Shown here: one piece after another, positions 9,914-22,332 of the stretch | Position numbering within the stretch: the first letter of the stretch is position 1 | How the letters are laid out: each line of letters opens with the position of its first letter | NCBI GenBank assembly: GCA_947575235.1 | Contig: CANPMT010000033.1 | Location: 1 to 35,576 of the forward strand | DNA from: an uncultured Porphyromonadaceae bacterium | GTDB lineage: Bacteria; Bacteroidota; Bacteroidia; Bacteroidales; Muribaculaceae | Reading direction: 5' to 3' | Length of the DNA: 35,576 nucleotides | Notes under the pieces: model-generated | What the model was told of the DNA's origin: nothing | Seen by the model: the letters and a program-made list of their open reading frames with translations, nothing else | Database searches by the model: none | Translations under genes and position numbers: made by a program

Positions 9914-10453
9914 ATGATTAACGAAATACTCGAACATAACCGCCAATTCGTGGCCGACCGTGGCTACGAGCGGTTTCTCACCGACAAATATCCCAACAAG
10001 AAAATCGCCATCGTGACCTGCATGGACACCCGCCTCGTCGAACTCCTTCCCGCGGCCTTGGGCTTCCGCAACGGCGATGTGAAAATCATCAAGAATGCCG
10101 GAGGCACAATCACCAATCCCTTCGACAGCACCATGCGCTCGCTCATGGTGGCTGTGTATGAACTCGGCGTGACCGAAATCATGATAATCGGCCACACCGG
10201 GTGCGGCGTGCAGGGGATGGACAGCCGTGAGATGCTGCACCTCATGAAGGAGCGTGGCATCCCGGAAGAGAACATCAACCTCATGAAACATTGCGGAATC
10301 GACCTCGACAGCTGGCTCCACGGCTTCGACAGCACCGAGGAGGCCGTGCGCGAGACAGTCGACCTGGTGAAGAATCATCCCCTCATGGCCAAGGATGTGG
10401 TGGTGAAGGGTTACATCATGAATTCTGCGACAGGTGAGCTGACACCTCTGTAG
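9914..10453 (+). CDS. Beta-class carbonic anhydrase
   Basis: The enzyme interconverts carbon dioxide and bicarbonate in the cytoplasm. The 179-residue protein has the beta-class zinc ligands C36 (in TCMDTR), H94 and C97 (in GHTGCG), and the catalytic Asp-Arg dyad D38-R40. KNAGGTITNPF is the conserved segment after the first ligand. The length is normal for the short bacterial type. ATG 9914 is preferred over an in-frame TTG at 9905. An intrinsic terminator (10471-10508) follows, placed inside the convergent LytTR gene, and the two coding regions overlap by 38 bp at their 3' ends. Nothing ties it to its neighbours. Confidence 0.92.
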   Translation: MINEILEHNRQFVADRGYERFLTDKYPNKKIAIVTCMDTRLVELLPAALGFRNGDVKIIKNAGGTITNPFDSTMRSLMVAVYELGVTEIMIIGHTGCGVQGMDSREMLHLMKERGIPEENINLMKHCGIDLDSWLHGFDSTEEAVRETVDLVKNHPLMAKDVVVKGYIMNSATGELTPL

Positions 10454-11120
10454 CATACTGTCGGCCTATAGGCAGTGCCTGTCCCGTGACAAGCACTGCC
10501 TCTCTTTTGTTGAAACTCTTCACCTTGGCTCTGTTTACTATATACGACCGATGGATCCTTATGAAATCCTTGGCCGGAAGAAGAGTGCCTATATTCTTGA
10601 GTATCATACGCGACAACGTACACACCCCACCTTCGCGGAATATCTTCACATACCCCTCCATAGCCTCTATATACAGAATCTCGGCCAGCCGGATGGTGAC
10701 ATTGTTATATTCCTGCTTCACCACAATCGAGGCGGTATCCACCTCCTCATGCCGCACCCCTATCCGCCTCATAGCCTTCCCGAAGGCTGTCTTGAACCGT
10801 GCGAAGGAGTAGGGCTTGTGAAGATAGTCAACGGCATCCAGTTCAAAGCCGTCGAGGGCATAGTCCAGATAAGCTGTCGAGAAGATAAAGCAGGTATCTG
10901 TGGGCAGTTTGCGTGCTATCTCGAGTCCGGTGACGTTCTCCATCTCGATATCCAAAAACACCACGTCGGGATGCTCCCTGCACACTGTGGCCAGACCCTC
11001 GGCCGGATCCGAGAACACCTTCAGTTCAATCCCGCCGATTCTCTCGCAGAATTTAGCTATCACATCAAGGGCAAGCGGTTCATCATCTATGGCCACACAT
11101 CTGATAACATCATTATTCAT
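10416..11120 (-). CDS. LytTR-family response regulator
   Basis: The 234-residue protein has a receiver domain (about 5-120) with acidic pair D12-D13, phosphoacceptor D57 in FLDIEM, and the conserved Thr/Ser and Lys regions (FIFSTAYLDYALDGFELDAV, DYLHKPYSF). A LytTR DNA-binding domain follows (about 135-230), with ILYIEAMEGYVKIF, FIRIHRSYIVN and LPIGRQY. LytTR regulators bind paired 9-bp direct repeats about two helical turns apart. Two such sites lie upstream of 12347 and 13358. The kinase gene upstream overlaps by 8 bp, so they form one operon and a two-component pair. Confidence 0.92.
   Translation of the reverse strand: MNNDVIRCVAIDDEPLALDVIAKFCERIGGIELKVFSDPAEGLATVCREHPDVVFLDIEMENVTGLEIARKLPTDTCFIFSTAYLDYALDGFELDAVDYLHKPYSFARFKTAFGKAMRRIGVRHEEVDTASIVVKQEYNNVTIRLAEILYIEAMEGYVKIFREGGVCTLSRMILKNIGTLLPAKDFIRIHRSYIVNRAKVKSFNKREAVLVTGQALPIGRQYATEVSAHLSQNS
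10471..10508 (+). terminator. Intrinsic terminator of the carbonic anhydrase gene
   Basis: GGCAGTGC (10471-10478) pairs with GCACTGCC (10493-10500). An inner TGTC/GACA extends the stem around a CCGT loop, with one mismatch, and TCTCTTTT follows. It lies wholly inside the 3' coding part of the minus-strand LytTR gene. Confidence 0.7.
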
Positions 11121-12177
11121 CGCGCTTCATTTTAAGGTATAGTTCATACTCACCATCCCGCTCCTTCATATCCAGCTCATAGCTGCCCGGATAAAGGGCA
11201 TCGAGCCTTGAGCGGCAGTTCTCTATCCCCACGGGCACCTCCTCGCGGAAGACGTCAGCCTGCTTCATCACACGGTTGCGTGTGGTGAATGTCAGCACAC
11301 CCTCGCTCACCTCCAGACCTATCCTTATCACACAGTCCTTGCTCGTGGAGGCGCCGTATTTATAGGCGTTCTCCACAAAAGTCACTATAATCATCGGGGG
11401 CACCTTCAGCGAATCGTCGTCGATATGGCACTCCCATTCCACCTTGGTGTGCCGGTTAAGCCGGATTGCCTGCAGGGAGATATAATTCTCGATATTCTCG
11501 ACCTCCTCACCTATCGTCACCCAGTCTTTACCCACTGCGGTGTAGGTATACTTCAGAATACCGGTGAATTTCACGAATGCCTCCTCGGCCCTCTCCGAGG
11601 TGCCTATCACCAGGCTGTAGAGGGAGTTGAGCGTATTGAATAGGAAATGCGGGCTTATCTGGGCCTTGAACACAGCCAATTCCGCTCTGTCGCGCTCAGC
11701 CTCTATCTTACGTTTCAGCAGTAGCTGGGCATAGAGCTCCTTCACAAAAGCCACCGATACGGAATACCCCACCACCAGCGAGAACATAAGCCATAACGTC
11801 ACCGACACACCGAAATCGCGCAGTTCCGTCTGATAGCGGCTCAGCACGGGGGTCACGAAGTCCATCTCCGGCAACGGGTAGCCTGACAGTAGCCATGTGC
11901 CGGCTATGAGCCCTACTGTCACCACAAGAATCTTGCCGTAACGCCGCTGCAGCAGCAGGGTGGGTATGCGTGCGGAGAGTATTATGAAGTAGCAGGCATA
12001 TAGATAGGCACAGGCCAGGATGAAGAAGAGGGGCCATTGGCTTATCCATGTATATGAGGGTCCCAACAGCACGAGCAGAGGCATCAGCACCACGCAGAAG
12101 AAGAGGTCGGGTATGATGGCCGTTCGCGCCTCGGGGGTGGCAGTGTGCAGGGACAGAAGGGTGCGGATTGATTTCAT
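11113..12177 (-). CDS. LytS/YehU-type membrane histidine kinase
   Basis: The 354-residue protein has four hydrophobic membrane segments (about 20-40, 48-68, 82-98 and 122-145). A charged linker leads into a His_kinase (PF06580-type) motif, AVFKAQISPHFLFNTLNSLY, with phosphoacceptor H177. A HATPase domain follows, with PPMIIVTFVENAYKYG as N box and VPVGIENCRSRLDALYPG as G box. It should phosphorylate the LytTR partner in response to an envelope signal. A longer frame reaches 12231, but ATG 12177 follows a TAACTTTG -7 box by only 5 bases, so upstream codons would not be transcribed. The mRNA is probably nearly leaderless. Confidence 0.9.
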   Translation of the reverse strand: MKSIRTLLSLHTATPEARTAIIPDLFFCVVLMPLLVLLGPSYTWISQWPLFFILACAYLYACYFIILSARIPTLLLQRRYGKILVVTVGLIAGTWLLSGYPLPEMDFVTPVLSRYQTELRDFGVSVTLWLMFSLVVGYSVSVAFVKELYAQLLLKRKIEAERDRAELAVFKAQISPHFLFNTLNSLYSLVIGTSERAEEAFVKFTGILKYTYTAVGKDWVTIGEEVENIENYISLQAIRLNRHTKVEWECHIDDDSLKVPPMIIVTFVENAYKYGASTSKDCVIRIGLEVSEGVLTFTTRNRVMKQADVFREEVPVGIENCRSRLDALYPGSYELDMKERDGEYELYLKMKRDE

Positions 12178-12222: not shown

Positions 12223-12252
12223 TTTACACATTTTTAATTTTCATTTACACAT
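12223..12252 (+). promoter_or_regulatory. Paired direct repeat, candidate LytTR operator 1
   Basis: TTTACACAT occurs at 12223-12231 and again at 12244-12252: two identical 9-bp repeats with a 12-bp gap, a 21-bp period. This is the architecture of LytTR operators such as those of AgrA and ComE. The second repeat begins 33 bp before the -7 box of the lipoprotein gene. Confidence 0.72.
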
Positions 12253-12276
12253 TAGGCCGGAATAAGCAAAAATTAT

Positions 12277-12284
12277 TAAATTTG
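12277..12284 (+). promoter_or_regulatory. -7 box of the coiled-coil lipoprotein gene
   Basis: TAAATTTG matches the consensus. The expected -33 position has no TTTG. The operator repeat sits just upstream of it, which suggests an activator-dependent promoter. Confidence 0.55.
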
Positions 12285-12304
12285 CAATTACAATCCATTG
12301 ATAT

Positions 12305-12326
12305 GGGATTGCGGCGCGGCAATCCC
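12305..12326 (+). promoter_or_regulatory. Leader hairpin before the lipoprotein gene
   Basis: GGGATTGC (12305-12312) and GCAATCCC (12319-12326) form a perfect 8-bp stem with a 6-nt GC-rich loop, followed by TTCTT. It lies in the predicted 5' leader and could act as an attenuator or stabilise the mRNA. Confidence 0.5.
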
Positions 12327-12346
12327 TTCTTAAAACGACCCAAGGT

Positions 12347-13195
12347 ATGAGACTGATATTCCAGCTTTTGATTCTATCGGCAGTCTTGCTCGCATCGTGC
12401 AGCAAGACCCCGGCTGAAGTGCAGCCGTCGCTCATGGAGGCCTCCAAGCAGGAACTCGCCTCTGCCATAGCCGAACGCGACGAGCTCCTGAAGTTAGTCA
12501 CGGAGATTACTTCGCTGATGACTGAGATAAAACGCGTTGAGCATATAATCAGCTCCCCATCCACCGGTGAGAGCGACCGCCGTCGGCTCATCGGCGACCT
12601 CAAGGCATTGCAGAACCGCCTCGACTCGCGCCGCAAGGAGCTGAGCGAACTCGACTCGCGCCTTAAGGAATCCTCTTTGGTATCTGACGATATGTCGGAG
12701 GCCATAAAGTCGCTTTACCGTGAGATTGACTCTCAGTCGTCGACAATAGCCAAACTCAGGAAGCATCTCTCTGAAGCGAACGCCCGGATTGAATCGCTCC
12801 ATCAGGAGGTGGATTCGCTTAACTCTGCCATTGAGACCTCATCGCAAGAACGCGACGAGGCGAAGGCCCATTCCGATGAACTGGAGACCCGGCTCAATAC
12901 CTGTTATTATATCGTGGCCTCGAAGAGGGAGCTCAAGAAGCACCACATCATCGAAAGCTCATTCCTACGGAAGCAGAAACTAATGGAGGGTGATTTCGAC
13001 AAAGATTGCTTCACCATGGCCGACAAGACTGATTTAGTGGCGATTCCCCTGCCCACCGACCATTCAAAATTGCTCAGCAAGCACCCCAAGGACACCTACG
13101 AGCTCCTCAACTATAACGGCGAGGGGAAACTCCTGATTCTCAACACCGAACGTTTCTGGTGCTTCTCAAACTATCTTGTGATTCAGACTGACTGA
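12347..13195 (+). CDS. Coiled-coil lipoprotein of unknown function
   Basis: I do not recognise a family. The 282-residue protein has a lipoprotein signal peptide ending LLASC (lipidated C18). A long heptad-rich coiled coil fills about residues 30-185, dense in Glu, Lys, Arg and Leu (KALQNRLDSRRKELSELDSR, EANARIESLHQEVDSLNSAI). A globular C-terminus of about 95 residues (CYYIVASKRELKKHHII to FWCFSNYLVIQTD) follows. It resembles gut Bacteroidota periplasmic lipoproteins of unknown role. It diverges from the kinase-regulator operon, and its promoter carries the LytTR-type repeat, so it may be a target or an accessory sensor of that system. Confidence 0.8.
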   Translation: MRLIFQLLILSAVLLASCSKTPAEVQPSLMEASKQELASAIAERDELLKLVTEITSLMTEIKRVEHIISSPSTGESDRRRLIGDLKALQNRLDSRRKELSELDSRLKESSLVSDDMSEAIKSLYREIDSQSSTIAKLRKHLSEANARIESLHQEVDSLNSAIETSSQERDEAKAHSDELETRLNTCYYIVASKRELKKHHIIESSFLRKQKLMEGDFDKDCFTMADKTDLVAIPLPTDHSKLLSKHPKDTYELLNYNGEGKLLILNTERFWCFSNYLVIQTD

Positions 13196-13239
13196 ACCTC
13201 CCGCACCGCAGCCTGATGGGCTGGAGCCGTTGCCGTTTA

Positions 13240-13269
13240 TTTACACTTTCTCACTGATGATTTACACAT
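13240..13269 (+). promoter_or_regulatory. Paired direct repeat, candidate LytTR operator 2
   Basis: TTTACACTT (13240-13248) and TTTACACAT (13261-13269) repeat with the same 12-bp gap and 21-bp period as the site at 12223-12252. The second repeat ends 2 bp before the -33 box and starts 34 bp before the -7 box, almost the same geometry as the other site. Confidence 0.72.
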
Positions 13270-13271
13270 CC

Positions 13272-13302
13272 TTTGCCGTATAACAGGGGTGTTGTAATTT
13301 TG
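13272..13302 (+). promoter_or_regulatory. Consensus promoter of the first susCD operon
   Basis: TTTG (13272-13275), a 19-bp spacer and TAATTTTG (13295-13302). The leader would be about 50 nt. The LytTR-type repeat abuts the -33 box. Confidence 0.75.
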
Positions 13303-13357: not shown

Positions 13358-16309
13358 ATGAGATATAGTTCCCTGATAGTGCCGGCACTATTTTTATATG
13401 CCTCCTCCGCGTCAGCTTCCCCCACAGAAGCGGAAACGTCTTCACAGTCACAAGCCGAAGCGGGCAGCCCCGACGTCAGCTCATATCTCTTGCCTGATTC
13501 TCTGTTGAATGTATCGGGTCTTGACGAGGTGGTCGTGGTGGGCTACGCCACCCAGAAGAAGATCGACCTCACCGGAGCTGTATCATCAATCAGCTCCGCA
13601 TCTCTGGCCGACCGCCCCATCACAAACGCCACTAACGCCCTTGCCGGACTCGCACCGGGTCTCACCGTCACCAACTCAGGTGGCAACACCCCGGGCTATG
13701 AGAGCCAGTCCATACGCGTGCGCGGGCAGGGAACGCTCAACGATTCGGCCCCGCTTGTGGTGGTGGATGGCGTCACAGGCATATCTATCAGCGACATTAA
13801 CCCGCAGGATATCGCAAGCATCTCTATACTGAAGGATGCCGCCTCGGCGGCAATCTACGGCTCGAGGGCGGCCAACGGTGTGATTCTCATTACTACGCGC
13901 CAGGGGAGCAACGCAGCCCCACGCCTCACTTACAGTGGCAACGTATCGTTTGAGACGGTGGCAAAACGTATGAATCTTGTCACCGACTACGCCTCTTTCA
14001 TGGAGATTCAGAACGCGGCCCTGATTATGAATGGACAGGCTCCGCGTTTCTCGCAGGGGAAAATCGACGAGTGGCGCAACGATGCCGGACAGAACCCCAC
14101 AATCTACCCCAACACCGACTGGCAAGACCATATCTACCGCAACCCCTCCGTGGTGCAGAACCATAACCTCTCCATCACGGGTGGCAACAAGACGGTGCGC
14201 TATAACCTCTCGTTCGGGTTTGTCAATAACCCGGGTATGATATATTATACCGATTACCGCCGCTATCAGCTGCGCTCCAACATCGACGTCACCATACGTC
14301 CGTGGCTGAGCGTGGGCACCAACCTTTTCGGCTTCCTCGACTCCAACAACCCCTCTTCTGAGAATGCCACTGCCGGTGGCGACGTTATCTTCGGCTCGGG
14401 TGCCTTCAACACCGTGCCGGGAATGACCCTCTACGACCCTGCCACAGGGCTCTACGGCGGCATTCAGAACCCGGAGGAGGAGAATGTGAGCAATTTCAAC
14501 CCCTACCGCCGCCAATGGTTCTATAAGACGGAGTTCCCCACGAAGACCAAGAAGATCGTGGCGAAGATGTATGCCCGTCTCCAACCGGTGAAGGGTCTGA
14601 TCCTCCAGGGGTCGTTCACCTACAATCATTGGGACCGCCGTGTGGAACAACATCTTACCGACCGAAACCTTTACCGTTTCACATTCGACGGCCCTGTGCT
14701 TATACGCGACGGCGCGGTGCGTACCTACATACGCCGTTACAACTATAATGAAAACTTCCGAGCGTCCGAACTCACCGCTAATTACAATTTTTCGCTATCG
14801 CGGCTTGAATCGTCGGTGCTCCTTGGCATAAGCCAGGAGTATGACAAGTATGACACTGAGTCTTTCATCAAGTATGACCTCATCGACGATTCACTCACCT
14901 CTATCGACGCCGGGACAACTAACGGGGCTATCTCCGGAAATTTCACTGAATGGGCCATGCGTTCCTACTTCGGACGCATCAATCTGAACTGGGATGGCCG
15001 CTATCTCTTGGAGGCCAATCTCAGAATCGACGGCTCCTCCAAATTCGCCCCCGACCGCCGCTGGGGCTGGTTTCCCTCTCTCTCTGCCGCATGGCGCATC
15101 TCTGACGAGCCTTTCATGCGCGACACCTACACCTGGCTGAGCAATCTGAAACTGCGGGCATCCTACGGCTCGCTCGGCAATAACGCCACCACGAGCTATT
15201 ACATGTATCAGTCGCTCTTTGCCACTGCCAACTATGTGCTCAACGGCAATATGGCGGGTGGTTTCGCGCAGACTGTACTCTCTAACCCGGCACTCTCGTG
15301 GGAGAAGACCTATATGACGAATGTCGGGCTCGATTTCAGTGTGCTCGACAGCCGTCTCAGCGGTTCGGTCGACCTCTACAACAAGGACACGAAGGGTATT
15401 CTGATCTCGCTCCCGGCCCCTCTCGAGCATGGCACGAGCATTGTGCCCAACCAGAACGCGGGTGAGGTCAACAACAAGGGGGTCGAGCTTGAGCTGACAT
15501 GGCGCGACCGTATCGGCAACGTCTCTTATTCTGTGGGTGGCAACCTTAGCTATGTCAGCAACAAGGTGACGAAGTTCCAGGGGGATGTGGCCTCAATCAA
15601 CGGGGTCTATAAGATTCAGGAGGGACGCCCCATCAACCAGCTCTATGTCATTACAGTTGACCGTATCGTGCGCGACGAGGCTGACCTTGCCTACGTGCAG
15701 CAGCTTGTCGACGCCAACCCTGACTATTTCGCCACATACCAGCGTCCGGGACTCGGCGATTTCCTCTATGCCGACACCAACGGTGACGGCTCGCTCGATG
15801 CCAACGACCGCGTGGAGATCGGGGGCGGCACGCTGCCGCGACTCACTTACGGCATAAACCTCTCTGCCTCGTGGCGAGGGTTCGACTTCTCGATGATGCT
15901 GCAGGGGGTAGGCTCAAATCCTGTCTATTACAACAACCAGGCTTTCCGCTTCGTCACCGTCATGGGGCAGTCGCTCAACAAGGATATCACCGACAACGCC
16001 TGGACTCCGGAGAATCCTTACAACTCCCGCTATCCTGTGCTGCGCAATAACGCCGACGGACGCAACAACATTGCGAGCGACGCTTTCGTGCATGACGCCG
16101 CCTATCTGCGCTGCAAGAATCTCCAGCTCGGCTATACACTGCCACGCGATGTGACGTCGAAGTTCTTCATCGACTCTATAAAGGTGTATGCGAGCATCGA
16201 CAATCTCTTCACCATCACAAAGTTTCCCGGGCTCGACCCTGAGGTGGGAGCAACCGTAGGCTATCCCACCGTGCGGCAGTATTCCGTTGGTTTGAACATC
16301 ACTTTCTGA
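13358..16309 (+). CDS. SusC/RagA-family TonB-linked transporter, no N-terminal regulatory domain
   Basis: The 983-residue outer-membrane barrel would import glycans or peptides with its SusD partner, powered by TonB. After the signal peptide (about 1-20) and a short Ser/Glu-rich linker comes the TonB-box region LDEVVVVGYATQ (55-66). The plug follows (SIRVRGQGTLND, SILKDAASAAIYGSRAANGV), then a long barrel ending VRQYSVGLNITF. The usual carboxypeptidase-regulatory-like domain of about 80 residues between signal peptide and TonB box is missing, unlike the second SusC here. SusD follows after 21 bp. The promoter carries a LytTR-type operator, which is unusual for a SusC gene. Confidence 0.95.
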   Translation: MRYSSLIVPALFLYASSASASPTEAETSSQSQAEAGSPDVSSYLLPDSLLNVSGLDEVVVVGYATQKKIDLTGAVSSISSASLADRPITNATNALAGLAPGLTVTNSGGNTPGYESQSIRVRGQGTLNDSAPLVVVDGVTGISISDINPQDIASISILKDAASAAIYGSRAANGVILITTRQGSNAAPRLTYSGNVSFETVAKRMNLVTDYASFMEIQNAALIMNGQAPRFSQGKIDEWRNDAGQNPTIYPNTDWQDHIYRNPSVVQNHNLSITGGNKTVRYNLSFGFVNNPGMIYYTDYRRYQLRSNIDVTIRPWLSVGTNLFGFLDSNNPSSENATAGGDVIFGSGAFNTVPGMTLYDPATGLYGGIQNPEEENVSNFNPYRRQWFYKTEFPTKTKKIVAKMYARLQPVKGLILQGSFTYNHWDRRVEQHLTDRNLYRFTFDGPVLIRDGAVRTYIRRYNYNENFRASELTANYNFSLSRLESSVLLGISQEYDKYDTESFIKYDLIDDSLTSIDAGTTNGAISGNFTEWAMRSYFGRINLNWDGRYLLEANLRIDGSSKFAPDRRWGWFPSLSAAWRISDEPFMRDTYTWLSNLKLRASYGSLGNNATTSYYMYQSLFATANYVLNGNMAGGFAQTVLSNPALSWEKTYMTNVGLDFSVLDSRLSGSVDLYNKDTKGILISLPAPLEHGTSIVPNQNAGEVNNKGVELELTWRDRIGNVSYSVGGNLSYVSNKVTKFQGDVASINGVYKIQEGRPINQLYVITVDRIVRDEADLAYVQQLVDANPDYFATYQRPGLGDFLYADTNGDGSLDANDRVEIGGGTLPRLTYGINLSASWRGFDFSMMLQGVGSNPVYYNNQAFRFVTVMGQSLNKDITDNAWTPENPYNSRYPVLRNNADGRNNIASDAFVHDAAYLRCKNLQLGYTLPRDVTSKFFIDSIKVYASIDNLFTITKFPGLDPEVGATVGYPTVRQYSVGLNITF

Positions 16310-16330: not shown

Positions 16331-18070
16331 ATGAAATTCAACCGTCATATATCTCTTCTGCTTCTTCTACCGGCTCTCCTCTCAAGCTGCGAGAGCCTCG
16401 ACTATTCACCGGGCAACCAGATGTCGGAGACTACCTTCTGGCAGACCGAGGACCATGCCCGTCAGGCTGCCATCGGCCTGTATGCGGCCATGAAGGCGAA
16501 CTGGTGCTTCGGCATGGAGTTCACTTTCGACATGTGCAGCGACTTGGCCGACGGTGTCTCCCCCTGGGCCGACGTTTCGCGGGGCACCTCTTTCGCCTCC
16601 AACAGCGCCGGTGTGCAGAACCACTGGCAGTATCTCTATGAGCTGGTCCACCGCTGCAACACTGTGATTCGCAATGTGGCCGGTATGCCTGTGTCGGAAC
16701 AGACCATTAACTATGTCACGGGTGAGGCCCGTTTCCTCCGCGCCATGGCTTATTTCCGTATGCTCAACTGCTGGGGCGGGGTGCCTTATTATGACGAGAC
16801 CTGTGATATAAACCTTGAATTTGCCAACCTGCAGAACAAGCGCTGCCCGGCCGATGAACTGCGTGCCCACATACTCGACGACCTTGACAAGGCTATCGAG
16901 TCTCTCCCGGTGAAATGGCCCGACTCCGACCTCGGACGCGCCACAAAGGGGGCGGCCTATGCCCTGCGCGGAAAGGTGTATCTCTTCAATGAGGAGTGGG
17001 AGAAGGCTGCAGCCGATTTCGAGGAGGTGGTCTACAACCGTTCGGAGAACTACGGCTACGCCCTCCATGCCGACTACAACGACCTCTTCCGCCTCTACAA
17101 CGGGCGCACCAGCAATGAGATGATCTTCTCTATCCAGTCGCTCGACGGCAACAATGCCGGCTACGCGCTCGATATCGTATCCTATTTCGGCAATAAGTCT
17201 ACCATGCGGCTTATCGCCTCAAACAATATAGTGCCGTCGGTCACTCTCGTGGATATGTATGAGAATCTCGACGGCTCACCTTTCAATTGGGACGACCTCT
17301 TCCCCGGGTTCAACAACGGTGGCCCGGAGTTGAGACGCAGCCTTATGTGCGTGGCCATCGACCAGGGAAGCACGGTTGTCACCAGTACTCTCGACTGCGA
17401 CACTACAAAGGTGATGGATGCCTACCGCCTGCGCGACCCCCGCCTCTGCCTCAACGTCATAACCCCTTATTCACATTATCTTGGCACCGACGCGGGTTCG
17501 GTGCCTATGGATAAGCAGTTTGTCCTTGCCGATGCCTCCAAAGGGGGAGCTCCGATGGAGGCCATGGCTTTCATGCGCAACTCCGAGGGATGGAACTCCT
17601 ATTTCTGGCGCAAGTGGATACCCACGGGGAATCTCGACGGCTACTGGGGGGAGTATAACCGCACCCCTTATGAGTTTCCCCTTATCCGCCTGGGCGACGT
17701 TATCCTGATGCTGGCCGAGGCGTATAATGAGCTTGGCGACACCCCGAAGGCGATGGCTGAGGTGAATAAGATACGCCGGCGCGTTGGTATGCCTGAACTC
17801 GGGTCAGGCCCCTCATGGCTCGCTGTCGACGGGCAGGAGGAGATGCGTCAACGCATTGTGCGAGAGCGTGCTTTCGAACTTGCCGGTGAGGGGCAGCGCT
17901 ACTGGGACCTCCGCCGCTGGCATATGCTCGAATCATCGGTAAAGGATGCCACCGACATCTTCGGCGATCTCATGTACACGCGCACCTACCAGCCTCGCCA
18001 CGAGCTCTGGCCAATCCCTCTCGTGGAACTCGACCGCAACCGCAATCTTATCCAAAATACGGGGTGGTAA
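16331..18070 (+). CDS. SusD/RagB-family nutrient-binding lipoprotein
   Basis: The 579-residue protein is the surface lid that captures ligand for its SusC partner. Lipidation is at C20 (LLSSC), followed by the acidic CESLD typical of export to the cell surface. SusD landmarks are TTFWQTEDHARQAAIGLYAA, ARFLRAMAYFRMLNCWGGVP, the TPR-like KGAAYALRGKVYLFNEEW and the C-terminal IVRERAFELAGEGQRYWDLR. It ends with the family-typical ELWPIPLVELDRN. It is co-transcribed with the upstream susC. No enzyme gene belongs to this operon, so the substrate cannot be guessed from context. Confidence 0.95.
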   Translation: MKFNRHISLLLLLPALLSSCESLDYSPGNQMSETTFWQTEDHARQAAIGLYAAMKANWCFGMEFTFDMCSDLADGVSPWADVSRGTSFASNSAGVQNHWQYLYELVHRCNTVIRNVAGMPVSEQTINYVTGEARFLRAMAYFRMLNCWGGVPYYDETCDINLEFANLQNKRCPADELRAHILDDLDKAIESLPVKWPDSDLGRATKGAAYALRGKVYLFNEEWEKAAADFEEVVYNRSENYGYALHADYNDLFRLYNGRTSNEMIFSIQSLDGNNAGYALDIVSYFGNKSTMRLIASNNIVPSVTLVDMYENLDGSPFNWDDLFPGFNNGGPELRRSLMCVAIDQGSTVVTSTLDCDTTKVMDAYRLRDPRLCLNVITPYSHYLGTDAGSVPMDKQFVLADASKGGAPMEAMAFMRNSEGWNSYFWRKWIPTGNLDGYWGEYNRTPYEFPLIRLGDVILMLAEAYNELGDTPKAMAEVNKIRRRVGMPELGSGPSWLAVDGQEEMRQRIVRERAFELAGEGQRYWDLRRWHMLESSVKDATDIFGDLMYTRTYQPRHELWPIPLVELDRNRNLIQNTGW

Positions 18071-18132: not shown

Positions 18133-21100
18133 ATGGATAACTCTTTGCATATACATCTTTATCGGATAGCCATTTTCCTGACAATGGCCTTGGCTCATCT
18201 CTGCGCCTCGGCAGGAGTGTCAAGGATGTATTTCAATCATTATAACACAAGTAACGGTCTGAGCCAGAACTCGGTCAACTATCTTCTGCAGGATAAGCAG
18301 GGGTATATATGGGTGGCCTCGAAGGATGGTCTCAACCGCTTCGACGGTTTCAACTTCCGTCGTATCGACGCCGACGACGACCGTGGATGCTCTTTCGCCA
18401 CGACTCTCTTCCAGGATGCCGACGATCTCATATGGACAGGTGCCCATAACGGTGCCTTCATCTATGACCCGGCCACCGAGCACCTCCGCAAATTCGACCT
18501 GAAAGCGGAGGATGGTTACGTCATCACCAAACCGGTGATACAGTTCCTCGCAGATGATAAGGGCCATATCCTGCTGGTGGTTGACTCCGAGGGTGTGTGG
18601 GTCTACGACAAATCATCGAAGACACTCTCTTCGCTCTATTCCTCCTCTTATATAAAGGTGAACCAGATTGTTATCGACCCCAGGGGGCGTATGTGGATCG
18701 GCACTTTCGGCCAGGGTCTGCTCTATTCTGACGATAACATGGCCACCATGAAGACTTTCCGTCCCTCTGACTCCGACTTCACTTTCGACAATGCCATAGT
18801 GAGCCATCTCGCCCTGAAGGGTGACAAGCTATATGTGGCTACCGACCGTCTGGGCCTGCATGCCATCGACCTGCGCGACAGTTCCGTGAATAGGGTTTTC
18901 CCGAAGGTGGATAGTGGCGACATACCTTATATCCGGCAGATTATGTTCGGCTCCTCCGGCCAGCTCTACATAGCCACTGAGGATGGTGTCTTCATTCATG
19001 ACCTGCAGCAGAATCAACTCTCGGCCCATCTCACACATAATCTCTACGACAAGTATTCTATCTCTGACAATGCCGTATATGCCCTGCTCAACGACCGTGA
19101 GGGGGGCGTGTGGGTGGGTTCCTATTTCGGAGGTGTTGACTATGCCCCATCCTCGCATATGCAGTTCGACAAGTATTATCCCGACAACTCGGGAGGCTCT
19201 CTCAGCGGACAGCGCGTGCGGGAATTGTGCGAGACACCATCCGACGGACGGATCTTCGTGGGGACGGAGGATAACGGCCTGAGCCTCTTCAATCCCGCCA
19301 CGGGTGATTTCTCTCCGGTGGCCGGAATCACGTCGAAGAATATCCATGCCCTCTGCCTCGACGGCTCAAAGCTGTGGATAGGCACCTTTGCCGAGGGTCT
19401 GCGGGTAAAAGACCTTGTCACGGGCGACGTCACCCGTTATTCATCGGCACATGGCCTGGGAAGCGACTATGTATTCTCGATAATCCGCACCATGAACGGC
19501 GATATGCTGTTGGGCACAATGCACGGCCTCTATCTCTATAACCGTGCCACCGACCGCTTCGAATGTATCCCTCAGCTCGACAATATCTTCATTTATGACA
19601 TGATGGAGGATAGGGATGGGAATCTCTGGGTGGCTACCTATGACCATGGTCTCTACGTGCGTGAGCCGGGAAAATCGGAATGGATAACCTGGCGCTGGAA
19701 TGACTCCGACCCTGACTCGCTCCCCTCCGACAAGGTCTACGGCCTCTATCAGGATTCACTCTCCACAATCTGGGTGATGACGCAGGATGGTCTCTGTTCA
19801 TTCCTCCCTCCGGCCGATAGCTCCCCACTCTCCTCCGGGAAGTTCAGGCGCGACCTCCTCGGCACCGACCGTATAAAGGGTATGGTGTATCAGGTGGTCG
19901 ATGACAATCGCGGACGCCTATGGCTCACCACCAATCACGGTCTCTATTGCATTGAGCGTAAGTCGGCCGACCTTCACCGCTTCTCGGTGTCGTCGGGTCT
20001 ACCCTCCAACCAGTTCAACTACCGCTCCTCGCTCCTTGCGGGGAATGGCCGCATCTATTTGGGCACCACCGAGGGATTGGTGGCCCTCACTCCGGCCGAT
20101 TTCTCCTTCTCCTCGCATTCTGTCACCCCGGTCATAACGGAGTTTCATCTTCACGGACGCCCTGTGCGCCCCGACGAACCCGACTCTCCCCTCACCACAA
20201 GTATCTCCCTTACGGAAGACCTATATCTTACGAGCAAACAGAACACCCTCGGATTCCGTGTGGCGAGCCTCGACTATTCAGCTGTGGGTGAGCAGGGTAT
20301 AATGTACCGTCTGAAGGGGTTCGAGTCAGACTGGCATTACACCAACCTCTCTGATGCCCTTATCTCCTACCCCAATCTCGACTATGGCAACTACACCCTG
20401 CAGGTAGCTCCCTACAATGAGTTCTCCGAGTCAGACACTGACCCTCTCGAGCTCAAGATCCATATAGCTCCCCCCTTCTATCTCTCCTGGTGGGCCTGGC
20501 TGATCTATATCGTCACGGCTTTCAGTGTGATTTATGTGATTTTCAGGCTCTACCGGCGCAACGCCTTCCTGAAGAACCAGCGGTATCTTGAGAACTACAC
20601 CGCCGAGAAGGAGCGCGAGGCTTACGACTCCAAGATTCGCTTCTTCACAAACGTGGCCCACGAGATACGCACCCCGCTCACTCTCATAAAGGCACCGCTC
20701 GACTGTGTGTCGCGTTCAAAGGAGTTCGTATCCGATTCCGACACCCGCGACAATCTCGATGTCATCAATATGAATGTCGACCGTCTGCTCCTTCTTGCCA
20801 ACCAGTTGCTCGACTTCCGCAAGATGGAGGACGGTAAGTTCCAGATTCACCGTCAACCGGCCGACATAACCGCGCTTCTCCAAAAGTGCGTCACTCGTTT
20901 CCGCCCCACTATGGAATCGGCGGGGCGCACCCTCACGCTCAATCTCCCCTCCCATGAGGTGATGGCAAACGTCGACAGCGAGGCAATAACTAAGATAATC
21001 AGCAACCTGTTCACCAACGCCATAAAGTATGGCGAGTCGCGTATCGGCGTCGAGCTCACCGGGAAAGGGGGTGGCTTCACCCTCATCATCAGCAATGACG

Positions 21101-22188
21101 GCGAGGTGGTGGCGCCTCAGAAGCGTGAGGAGATTTTCGGACTCTTCTCCCGGCTCGAGGAGGATGCCGACAAACCTGGCACCGGCATAGGGCTCTCATA
21201 TGCCCGCAGCCTGGCCCAGATGCACGGAGGCACCCTCAGGATGGACGACTCTACCGAGGAGAACCGTTTCATTCTCTCTGTGCCGCCATCGGAGGCTGAT
21301 GCCGTGCCGGTGGCAGAGGAAGTGGTGAACCCGGAACCGGAAAACCTTGAGGAGTATATCCGTAAGAGTGAATGTAAGGAGACAATCCTTTTGGTTGACG
21401 ACAACATGGAGCTGCTCACCTTCCTTGAGAAGAAACTTACAGCCTCGGGCTTCAAGGTTATCAAGGCTTCTGACGGCAAGGTGGCTCTCGAGGTGCTCGC
21501 CAACGAGTATGTCGACATTGTGGTAAGCGACGTCATGATGCCGGAGGTGGATGGCATTGAACTGCTGCGCCGCATAAAGTCTGACGTCAACTACAGTCAC
21601 CTGCCGGTTATCATGCTCACGGCCAAGACCCGCCTCGAGGATAAACTTACGGGGCTCGACTGCGGAGCCGACGCCTATCTGGAGAAACCCTTCGCCATAG
21701 AGTATCTTCTCGGCAACATCCGTATGCTTCTGCTCAACCGCCAGCGTATGCGCGAGCGCCTTGAGAAATTCCCCTTCACGGGTGAGATGCGCGGCACCCT
21801 CAACAAGGTCGATGAGGAGTTCCTGCTCAAGCTTAACGAGATTATCCGCACCAACTGCCGCAATCCGGAGTTTACCATCGACGATGTCGTGGACCGTCTC
21901 GGCATGAGCCGCACCCTCTTCTACCGCAAGGTGCGCGGCATGCTCAATCTCAATCCCAACGACTATATCAAGGTGGAGCGCCTCAAACAGGCGGCCGCCA
22001 TGTTCGCCCAGGGTCACACCCACATCAACACGGTGGCCTATGAGGTGGGGTTCTCGTCGCCGGGCTATTTCGCCAAATGCTTCAAGAAACACTTCGGTAT
22101 GAGCCCCACCGATTACGTCATGAAATACACCACCCGCACAGGCTTCACACCCCACGACATCACATTTTCCGACACCATAGAAGGGTAA
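18133..22188 (+). CDS. Hybrid two-component system (HTCS) regulator
   Basis: The 1351-residue protein joins sensor and regulator in one chain. A signal peptide or anchor (about 1-28) precedes a periplasmic double propeller of two-component-regulator repeats (NYLLQDKQGYIWVASKDGLN, DPRGRMWIGTFGQGL, DREGGVWVGSYFGG and others) and a Y_Y_Y domain (about 700-775). A membrane segment follows at about 785-806. The cytoplasmic part holds HisKA (FTNVAHEIRTPLTLIK, H843), an HATPase domain (NLFTNAIKYG, GTGIGLSYARSL), a receiver (VSDVMMPEVDG, D1133) and an AraC-type HTH (about 1225-1330, ending GMSPTDYV). HTCS proteins bind oligosaccharides in the periplasm and switch on their adjacent locus. Repeats just after its stop codon are likely binding sites. 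Confidence 0.96.
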   Translation: MDNSLHIHLYRIAIFLTMALAHLCASAGVSRMYFNHYNTSNGLSQNSVNYLLQDKQGYIWVASKDGLNRFDGFNFRRIDADDDRGCSFATTLFQDADDLIWTGAHNGAFIYDPATEHLRKFDLKAEDGYVITKPVIQFLADDKGHILLVVDSEGVWVYDKSSKTLSSLYSSSYIKVNQIVIDPRGRMWIGTFGQGLLYSDDNMATMKTFRPSDSDFTFDNAIVSHLALKGDKLYVATDRLGLHAIDLRDSSVNRVFPKVDSGDIPYIRQIMFGSSGQLYIATEDGVFIHDLQQNQLSAHLTHNLYDKYSISDNAVYALLNDREGGVWVGSYFGGVDYAPSSHMQFDKYYPDNSGGSLSGQRVRELCETPSDGRIFVGTEDNGLSLFNPATGDFSPVAGITSKNIHALCLDGSKLWIGTFAEGLRVKDLVTGDVTRYSSAHGLGSDYVFSIIRTMNGDMLLGTMHGLYLYNRATDRFECIPQLDNIFIYDMMEDRDGNLWVATYDHGLYVREPGKSEWITWRWNDSDPDSLPSDKVYGLYQDSLSTIWVMTQDGLCSFLPPADSSPLSSGKFRRDLLGTDRIKGMVYQVVDDNRGRLWLTTNHGLYCIERKSADLHRFSVSSGLPSNQFNYRSSLLAGNGRIYLGTTEGLVALTPADFSFSSHSVTPVITEFHLHGRPVRPDEPDSPLTTSISLTEDLYLTSKQNTLGFRVASLDYSAVGEQGIMYRLKGFESDWHYTNLSDALISYPNLDYGNYTLQVAPYNEFSESDTDPLELKIHIAPPFYLSWWAWLIYIVTAFSVIYVIFRLYRRNAFLKNQRYLENYTAEKEREAYDSKIRFFTNVAHEIRTPLTLIKAPLDCVSRSKEFVSDSDTRDNLDVINMNVDRLLLLANQLLDFRKMEDGKFQIHRQPADITALLQKCVTRFRPTMESAGRTLTLNLPSHEVMANVDSEAITKIISNLFTNAIKYGESRIGVELTGKGGGFTLIISNDGEVVAPQKREEIFGLFSRLEEDADKPGTGIGLSYARSLAQMHGGTLRMDDSTEENRFILSVPPSEADAVPVAEEVVNPEPENLEEYIRKSECKETILLVDDNMELLTFLEKKLTASGFKVIKASDGKVALEVLANEYVDIVVSDVMMPEVDGIELLRRIKSDVNYSHLPVIMLTAKTRLEDKLTGLDCGADAYLEKPFAIEYLLGNIRMLLLNRQRMRERLEKFPFTGEMRGTLNKVDEEFLLKLNEIIRTNCRNPEFTIDDVVDRLGMSRTLFYRKVRGMLNLNPNDYIKVERLKQAAAMFAQGHTHINTVAYEVGFSSPGYFAKCFKKHFGMSPTDYVMKYTTRTGFTPHDITFSDTIEG

Positions 22189-22215
22189 AATCGTCCCATT
22201 CTTTGGTAAAATCGT
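22184..22215 (+). promoter_or_regulatory. 21-bp-spaced direct repeats (site A), candidate HTCS operator
   Basis: GGTAAAATCGT occurs at 22184-22194 and 22205-22215, exactly 21 bp apart; CCAT also recurs in register after each. The first copy overlaps the stop codon of the HTCS gene. The spacing fits two AraC-type monomers on one DNA face. Confidence 0.6.
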
Positions 22216-22216
22216 G

Positions 22217-22263
22217 CCATCCTTCCGCATAAGATTGTAATTCAATCTTTTGCGGAAGGATGG
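22217..22263. repeat. Long inverted repeat, 21-bp arms
   Basis: The left arm (22217-22237) and right arm (22243-22263) are complementary over 21 positions with one mismatch, around the 5-base loop TAATT. It sits between the HTCS stop and the susC promoter. As RNA it would be a very stable hairpin, possibly the HTCS terminator; as DNA it could be an operator. Confidence 0.7.
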
Positions 22264-22310
22264 TAATTTTGTGCCGACACAGGATTACCACGATTTGACA
22301 CAATATTACC
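22262..22310 (-). promoter_or_regulatory. Further copies of the repeat (site B)
   Basis: ATTACC occurs at 22284-22289 and 22305-22310, again 21 bp apart. On the minus strand these read GGTAAT and continue like site A (GGTAATATTGTGTCA). A plus-strand GGTAATTTTGTGCC begins at 22262. The last copy lies where the -33 box of the susC promoter is expected. Confidence 0.55.
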
Positions 22311-22332
22311 ATTATTTCAGCCCCCGTCTGCC

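Follow-up and report, generated by a model that had tools for sequence, protein, structure and literature searches.

In the excerpts of PMC3878776 used here, the control of SusCD pairs is usually assigned to SusR, to an HTCS or to an ECF sigma/anti-sigma couple. The operators of LytTR regulators of the YpdB type and of the Streptococcus LytTR regulatory systems are described, in the relevant sections of PMC4847170 and PMC6193735, as paired direct repeats of 9-11 nt which are separated by a spacer of 11-13 bp and situated upstream of the promoter. The 'LRS-like' operons of Bacteroides thetaiotaomicron and B. ovatus, as far as covered by the cited sections of PMC6193735, share with the locus described below the affiliation to the Bacteroidales, a LytTR regulator and direct repeats upstream of a TGTR-19-TATCTTTG promoter; their regulator carries transmembrane segments, the partner protein is of the NfeD type, the repeats of 11 bp are separated by an 11 bp gap and the operons are presumed to be autoregulatory. 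For antibiotic-adapted Flavobacterium, LytTR mutations with unknown effect are reported in a part of PMC10197871. Among the literature matches listed, as judged by titles and abstract openings, none concerned a SusCD pair or an RND pump of the Bacteroidales under the control of a LytTR regulator.

The locus described here is situated in a window of 35,576 nucleotides (the whole stretch of DNA analysed), which is one whole contig of the 3.32-Mb assembly G000 (89.94% complete). Based on sequence comparison, two paired direct repeats in this window very probably represent operators of the adjacent LytTR regulator, through which a lipoprotein gene and susC-susD would be activated. The regulator gene (10416..11120, reverse strand) encodes 234 aa with a receiver and a LytTR DNA-binding domain (Pfam PF00072, E 8.8e-17, and PF04397, E 5.6e-18), as expected for a two-component regulator of this type. 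It adjoins a sensor histidine kinase gene on the same strand (11113..12177, start taken at 12177; 354 aa; PF06580, E 3.4e-21), the translation of which contains PHFLFNTLNSL. Divergently on the forward strand follow genes for a Cbp1-family coiled-coil lipoprotein of 282 aa (12347..13195; NCBIfam NF052320, 175.6 bits at a cut-off of 90), a SusC/RagA-type TonB-dependent transporter of 983 aa (13358..16309; TIGR04056, 827.8 bits at a cut-off of 368; Pfam Plug and barrel), and a SusD-type lipoprotein of 579 aa (16331..18070; PF07980, E 2.9e-45). Past susD, an HTCS with HTH_18 by Pfam (18133-22188) and then a second susCD, a GH43 protein and others are encoded on the forward strand.

These gene identities agree with those given in the earlier note, except for the name of the kinase. 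A 5TM sensor domain is a feature of LytS kinases; no Pfam family besides PF06580 was found in the kinase at E<=0.001, and thus the designation 'LytS' does not apply in the strict sense. In the window SusC only Plug and barrel were recognised by Pfam; the SusC frames of relatives extend approximately 100 codons further upstream, and in the one relative tested (L152) a CarboxypepD_reg domain is situated in this extension. ECF sigma factors, FecR and an STN domain in SusC were not detected among the 15 window proteins run through Pfam, and PDB sequence searches with SusC, SusD, the regulator and the lipoprotein gave no substrate clue. On contig C65 of the same genome (L298 2995-5296), a second LytTR kinase-regulator pair is followed by a secreted-looking protein of 156 aa.

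Both repeat pairs are located on the forward strand. Operator 1 (TTTACACAT-12 bp-TTTACACAT, 12223..12252) comprises half-sites at 12223-12231 and 12244-12252, and operator 2 (TTTACACTT-12 bp-TTTACACAT, 13240..13269) half-sites at 13240-13248 and 13261-13269. With a matrix derived from relatives only (see below), they score 23.4 and 21.8 bits, respectively. The 9-nt repeats and 12 bp spacers lie within the 9-11 nt and 11-13 bp of LytTR-type operators, the repeats of which may be direct or inverse. Scanning both strands of the window for TTTACACWT yielded only these four half-sites and none on the reverse strand. For the pattern TTTACAC(A/T)T-12 bp-TTTACAC(A/T)T with up to three mismatches, two matches were found in the window, both exact (0.05 expected from dinucleotide shuffles), and in the whole assembly the two exact pairs are those of the window. 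Positions, sequence and 12-bp gap reported for the repeats in the earlier note were thus reproduced by the pattern scan, as was its statement that the window contains no further paired copy, which for exact copies extends to the entire assembly. With up to three mismatches allowed, 14 matches were obtained in the assembly, and the reversed control pattern gave even more (19); mismatched copies were therefore discarded, and only exact ones are meaningful in this assembly. Across the 198 genomes surveyed, the exact pattern occurs in three (the own genome, G012 and G135) and is therefore too strict for relatives. The match in G012 is a 7-bp tandem repeat and was rejected. The two exact copies in G135 (L093 and L094) were also dismissed as operators, since they have unrelated neighbour genes and no TAnnTTTG box in place; situated inside a near-identical intergenic stretch, they are apparently a dispersed repeat.

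The 198 genomes belong to the same family, and the relatives bearing the locus are labelled Muribaculaceae, Duncaniella, Barnesiella or mixed MAG. Kinase matches at E<=1e-60 were obtained in 49 of them. Orthologues with at least 46% identity are present in 37 genomes (kinase+; own genome and the partial G043 and G155 included), and 12 genomes with matches of only 35-42% were set aside. Among the 40 kinase loci compared, four (L086-L089) are paralogues at 41-42%; in a tree of the regulators, 36 members of the orthologue group are separated from five paralogues by one branch (support 97/90). The gene order with regulator and kinase divergent from lipoprotein, susC and susD recurs in the relatives, with identities to the window proteins of 75-86% for SusC (86% over a partial match), 73-83% for SusD, 46-62% for the kinase and 36-46% for the lipoprotein. 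All 31 genomes with SusD orthologues (74-83%) are among the 37 kinase+ genomes (Fisher 1.5e-30, a test which ignores linkage and kinship). That kinase, lipoprotein and susCD occur together is in part simply due to linkage, of which only the unlinked genes and the RND operons treated below are free. SusD relatives of 50-55% occur without the kinase in G047, G067 and G084. Downstream of susD, gene content varies among the 18 loci compared, six of them inspected at sequence level. Cbp1-family matches are present in 185 of the 198 genomes, and in L021, L029, L030, L038, L041, and L043 another lipoprotein of this family occurs, unaccompanied by the kinase and preceded by what is presumably a 16S rRNA methyltransferase gene.

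For the training of a matrix of 34 columns, the regions between kinase and lipoprotein, or between kinase and susC, were taken from 29 relatives, the window being excluded; the matrix converged on nATTgACAcATTtntGcCGTTtATTTACAnntnc with 27 of the 29 regions contributing. In the lipoprotein-susC regions, which were not used for training, the site was found in 17 of 22 relatives (two near-duplicate pairs included). Of the five exceptions, L070, L078, L081, and L082 have a lipoprotein-susC gap of 10-28 bp, i.e., the lipoprotein gene abuts susC and the upstream site is the only one, and L074 has a gap of 84 bp. Where the lipoprotein is absent (L083, L084, and L090), the site is situated immediately before susC. 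On the reverse strand of the lipoprotein and susC promoter regions, scores do not exceed 5 bits. In a total of 517,127 bases (training loci included), 53 matches above 12 bits were observed, 51 of them at kinase-side, susC or third-target promoters; the remaining two are located inside susC of L079 and in L087. Identity between half-sites is 0.658 at a period of 21 and at most 0.314 at any other period from 15 to 27 (43 sites), and in region A 20 box pairs are spaced by 21 bp compared to at most six at every other spacing. No kinase-side site above 8 bits was found in L059 and L060, nor any site in the only 78 bp of the L055 kinase-side region. SusCD relatives of 48-59% without the kinase (L100-L103) have no site either, with ample upstream sequence in L100 only. 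The window sites lack a GCCGT block conserved by the relatives in the spacers. Conservation of the repeat pair beside orthologous loci, proposed earlier as a test, is thus found at both the lipoprotein and the susC promoters.

The spacing to the promoters is equally regular. In the window, the -7 elements TAAATTTG of the lipoprotein gene (12277..12284) and TAATTTTG of susC (13295..13302), both on the forward strand, fit the consensus TAnnTTTG of the Bacteroides main sigma factor as cited in a section of PMC7366714. They begin 33 bp (operator 1) and 34 bp (operator 2) behind the start of the second half-site, in accordance with the 33-34 bp previously claimed. A TTTG in the place of a -33 element (13272..13275, forward strand) is located 2 bp past operator 2 and 19 bp upstream of the susC -7 element; unlike the susC promoter, the lipoprotein promoter has no TTTG at this place. 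Among 43 sites, TTTG occurs within the first nucleotides behind the site in 9 of 16 susC-side and 1 of 27 kinase-side promoters. The -7 box follows the 34-mer at exactly 23 nt in all 17 susC-side sites. For kinase-side sites, the distance is 22-24 nt in 25 of 30, and the best -7 match lies at 11-16 nt in the other five. Such a fixed distance to the promoter is a further property of LytTR-type operators, and its constancy would suit an activator that contacts RNA polymerase.

In G076, G161, G190, and G090, susC is separated from the kinase, either by 23 kb or by lying on a different contig. The site is retained at three of these four unlinked susC genes (L096, L097, and L098 with 17.7, 32.4, and 26.6 bits); it is missing at susC of G090 (L095/L156). 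No site was found in the 400 bp adjoining the kinase gene in any of these four genomes (L064, L065, L075, and L077). The operator therefore goes with the targets, and for the kinase-regulator genes themselves it seems dispensable.

For a genome-wide view, a promoter model derived from sequence alone (R1; 44 sites from 29 genomes) was applied. At E<=0.002, R1 matches were obtained in all 37 kinase+ genomes and, weakly, in 4 of 161 without the kinase (kinase-), the latter inside ORFs (G003 and G156), before an ORF of 154 aa (G054) or between ORFs (G133). All eight kinase+ genomes outside the training set, two of which are near-duplicates of training genomes, were matched. In the own genome, five matches were found at E<=0.5: operator 1 at 8.6e-6, operator 2 in two pieces (0.13 and 0.27), and two weak matches on contigs C22 and C59 (0.13 and 0.25), compared to which the pieces of operator 2 score no better. 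Twelve unlinked R1 matches precede a tripartite RND efflux operon (HlyD_D23, ACR_tran, and OEP by Pfam in L139), and those in L149 and L151 have neither RND nor SusCD genes behind them. In the named loci with enough sequence (54 of 60, many being the same records as survey genomes), the site is present in 30 of 31 with and 6 of 23 without the kinase. The complete locus with its two sites is found in the isolates Barnesiella sp. WM24 (L161) and Muribaculaceae bacterium Isolate-110 HZI (L166). In L180, kinase and susC are both present with a best score of only 7.2 bits.

The RND operons provide a test independent of linkage. An RND adaptor was found at E<=1e-100 in 86 of the 198 genomes, 23 kinase+ and 63 kinase-, and the upstream regions of all 88 copies (65 in the 63 kinase- genomes) were scored with the matrix trained on the kinase side. 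A site was observed in 14 of the 23 kinase+ genomes (scores of 17-34 bits; distance to the -7 box 22-23 nt in every case) and at none of the 65 operon starts of the kinase- genomes, where the best score is 8.9 bits and some upstream stretches are short (181 bp in G075, 237 bp in G003). Permutation of the kinase label within genera, which is fairer here than the Fisher test ignoring relatedness, gave p ~1e-5, or 1.1e-4 after removal of three near-duplicates. No coding-strand site was found for the nine other kinase+ operons; in one of these, G166, the RND genes are located directly behind the lipoprotein gene, which has a site of its own. In G090, the site at the RND operon (L141) scores 31 bits, in contrast to the site-less susC of this genome. 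Reverse-strand scores above 10 bits occur in kinase+ G037 (23.5; nearest ORF of at least 90 aa beginning approximately 650 bp away) and G115 (14.5; opposite an ORF) and in kinase- G163 (11.8) and G036 (11.1).

In loci without susCD, the gene behind the site encodes a small secreted protein (L069, L071, and L105), which in L105 resembles PepSY_like at E 6e-4, short of the Pfam cut-off; in G043, a gene for a putative lipoprotein of 587 aa takes this place. Compared to the window, the regulon predicted for the relatives thus appears to be wider, extending to the RND efflux operon or to a small secreted protein of the PepSY-like kind. The assembly of the window contains no RND adaptor at E<=1e-60, and its regulon therefore appears to consist of the lipoprotein and SusCD. 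Of the small LytTR regulon proposed in the earlier note, the conserved operator at lipoprotein and susC, which tracks the kinase-regulator pair in trans, is upheld; its smallness does not extend to the relatives, and activation by the pair is a prediction.

A period of 21 bp is not peculiar to LytTR operators. In the excerpts of PMC3878776, the HTCS motifs of Bacteroides consist of directly repeated sites 21 bp apart on average, the same layout as observed here, and an HTCS gene starts 62 bp behind susD, so that the repeats might be read as operators of an AraC-type HTCS, e.g., the one encoded in the window. Since this geometry is common to HTCS operators, spacing alone does not discriminate between both types of regulator, and the earlier deduction of LytTR control from the repeat spacing holds only by virtue of the comparative data. 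These stand against the HTCS: its homologues (tblastn E<=1e-20) occur in only 2 of 41 oriented loci (L000 and L068) and 3 of 60 named loci, whereas the operator is present in most kinase-bearing loci and follows the LytTR kinase-regulator pair in trans. Furthermore, the HTCS precedes the second susCD and GH43 set, a more natural target, upstream of which other direct repeats spaced by 21 bp represent candidate HTCS operators (ATTACCA, 22284-22311; AATCGTSCCAT, 22189-22220). We consider HTCS control of the repeats improbable, and the comparative data favour the LytTR pair.

If the LytTR pair is accepted, its use of the sites might still be different. Operator 1 is only 45 bp away from the kinase start and autoregulation via direct repeats is known in LytTR regulatory systems (sections of PMC6193735), from which it could be argued that the repeats mainly autoregulate the divergent kinase-regulator operon and that effects on lipoprotein and susC are incidental. 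With a second copy 1 kb away before susC, a fixed distance to the -7 boxes of lipoprotein and susC, and sites that are absent at the four unlinked kinase genes but present at three out of the four unlinked susC genes and at 14 of the 23 kinase+ RND operons, we regard this as very unlikely. Five LytTR proteins are encoded in the assembly, and hence the neighbouring regulator is the likely, not the sole, candidate. Use of the sites by another, unlinked LytTR regulator would nevertheless hardly explain why they track this particular orthologue group, nor why, in the paralogous pairs L086-L089, the 400 bp preceding the kinase contain no such site scoring more than 10 bits; for a repressor instead of an activator, the constant distance of 23 nt to the -7 box would be needless. 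We give either variant very little credence.

Activation by the adjacent LytTR regulator may accordingly be pictured as follows. The kinase (11113-12177) would phosphorylate the response regulator (10416-11120), two subunits of which would bind both half-sites on one helix face, two turns apart. With the downstream half-site just upstream of the -33 position, the bound regulator could recruit RNA polymerase to two TAnnTTTG promoters, that of the Cbp1-family lipoprotein gene and that in front of susC-susD. Regulator binding, phosphorylation, activation and the signal are steps that we infer, activation from the promoter geometry.

In the sister systems L086-L089, the 41-42% kinase-regulator pairs diverge from a further set of MFP, RND and OEP genes, which were identified from gene size and from the start of the sequence, and in L152 RND-type genes (adaptor and OEP by Pfam) run into susC-susD with a 41% kinase upstream. 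By eye, the pairs of L086-L089 and L152 are accompanied by what seem to be repeats of their own kind, GTCAAnACAT, approximately 20-21 bp apart. Orthologous susCD (70-78%) of Parabacteroides, Bacteroides muris, Tannerella, Massilibacteroides, and Proteiniphilum occur without kinase and operator in the stretch compared. In L196 of Parabacteroides gordonii, Pfam identifies an ECF sigma factor, FecR, an STN-bearing SusC and, behind them, GH84 and GH3; the other records from outside the family resemble this layout, as judged by gene size and start only. It is tempting to speculate, albeit with considerable doubt, that a single LytTR system of these gut Bacteroidales acts as a two-way switch of envelope transport, activating the SusCD importer, the surface lipoprotein and, in relatives, the RND exporter from the same operator, and that it stands where orthologous SusCD elsewhere have ECF sigma/anti-sigma control. 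SusCD would then not serve ordinary glycan feeding but uptake or retrieval tied to efflux, e.g., of a metabolite that has been secreted or of a host compound that is harmful. Both the sister pairs divergent from another RND operon and the RND-SusCD run of L152 fit this speculation.

Importer and efflux pump would be tied through one sensor, which may govern both import and export. The operator model offers a handle on the kinase signal, and the predicted regulon is directly testable in cultured mouse-gut strains. As a caution, the presence of a 21-bp direct repeat in front of susC does not necessarily signify an HTCS. The window lipoprotein passes the NCBIfam cut-off of the family named after Cbp1 of Bacteroides fragilis, and collagen binding is only putative here; for B. 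fragilis Cbp1 itself, no significant difference between wild type and mutant in the adhesion of whole cells to collagen is reported in the portion of PMC3949742 consulted.

Compared to the described LytTR operators, the repeat TTKACACWT differs from the ACCACTTAY type tabulated in the excerpts of PMC6193735. In the register chosen by us, the end of the proximal repeat is 24-25 nt away from the -7 box, approximately 9-10 nt closer than derived from those tables. The targets are SusCD, lipoprotein and RND operons, unlike in the YpdB-type and Streptococcus LytTR systems, and unlike in the 'LRS-like' operons a receiver-LytTR regulator with a kinase acts, as predicted, on separate targets. As in SusCD systems controlled by SusR, HTCS or ECF sigma factors, a local regulator would control the susCD pair, but here it is a LytTR two-component pair, in the place of which the orthologous susCD of P. 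gordonii have ECF sigma and FecR genes and an STN-bearing SusC. Orthologous transporters in neighbouring families would thus be under different regulators, and with a conserved LytTR operator the usual types of SusCD control would number four.
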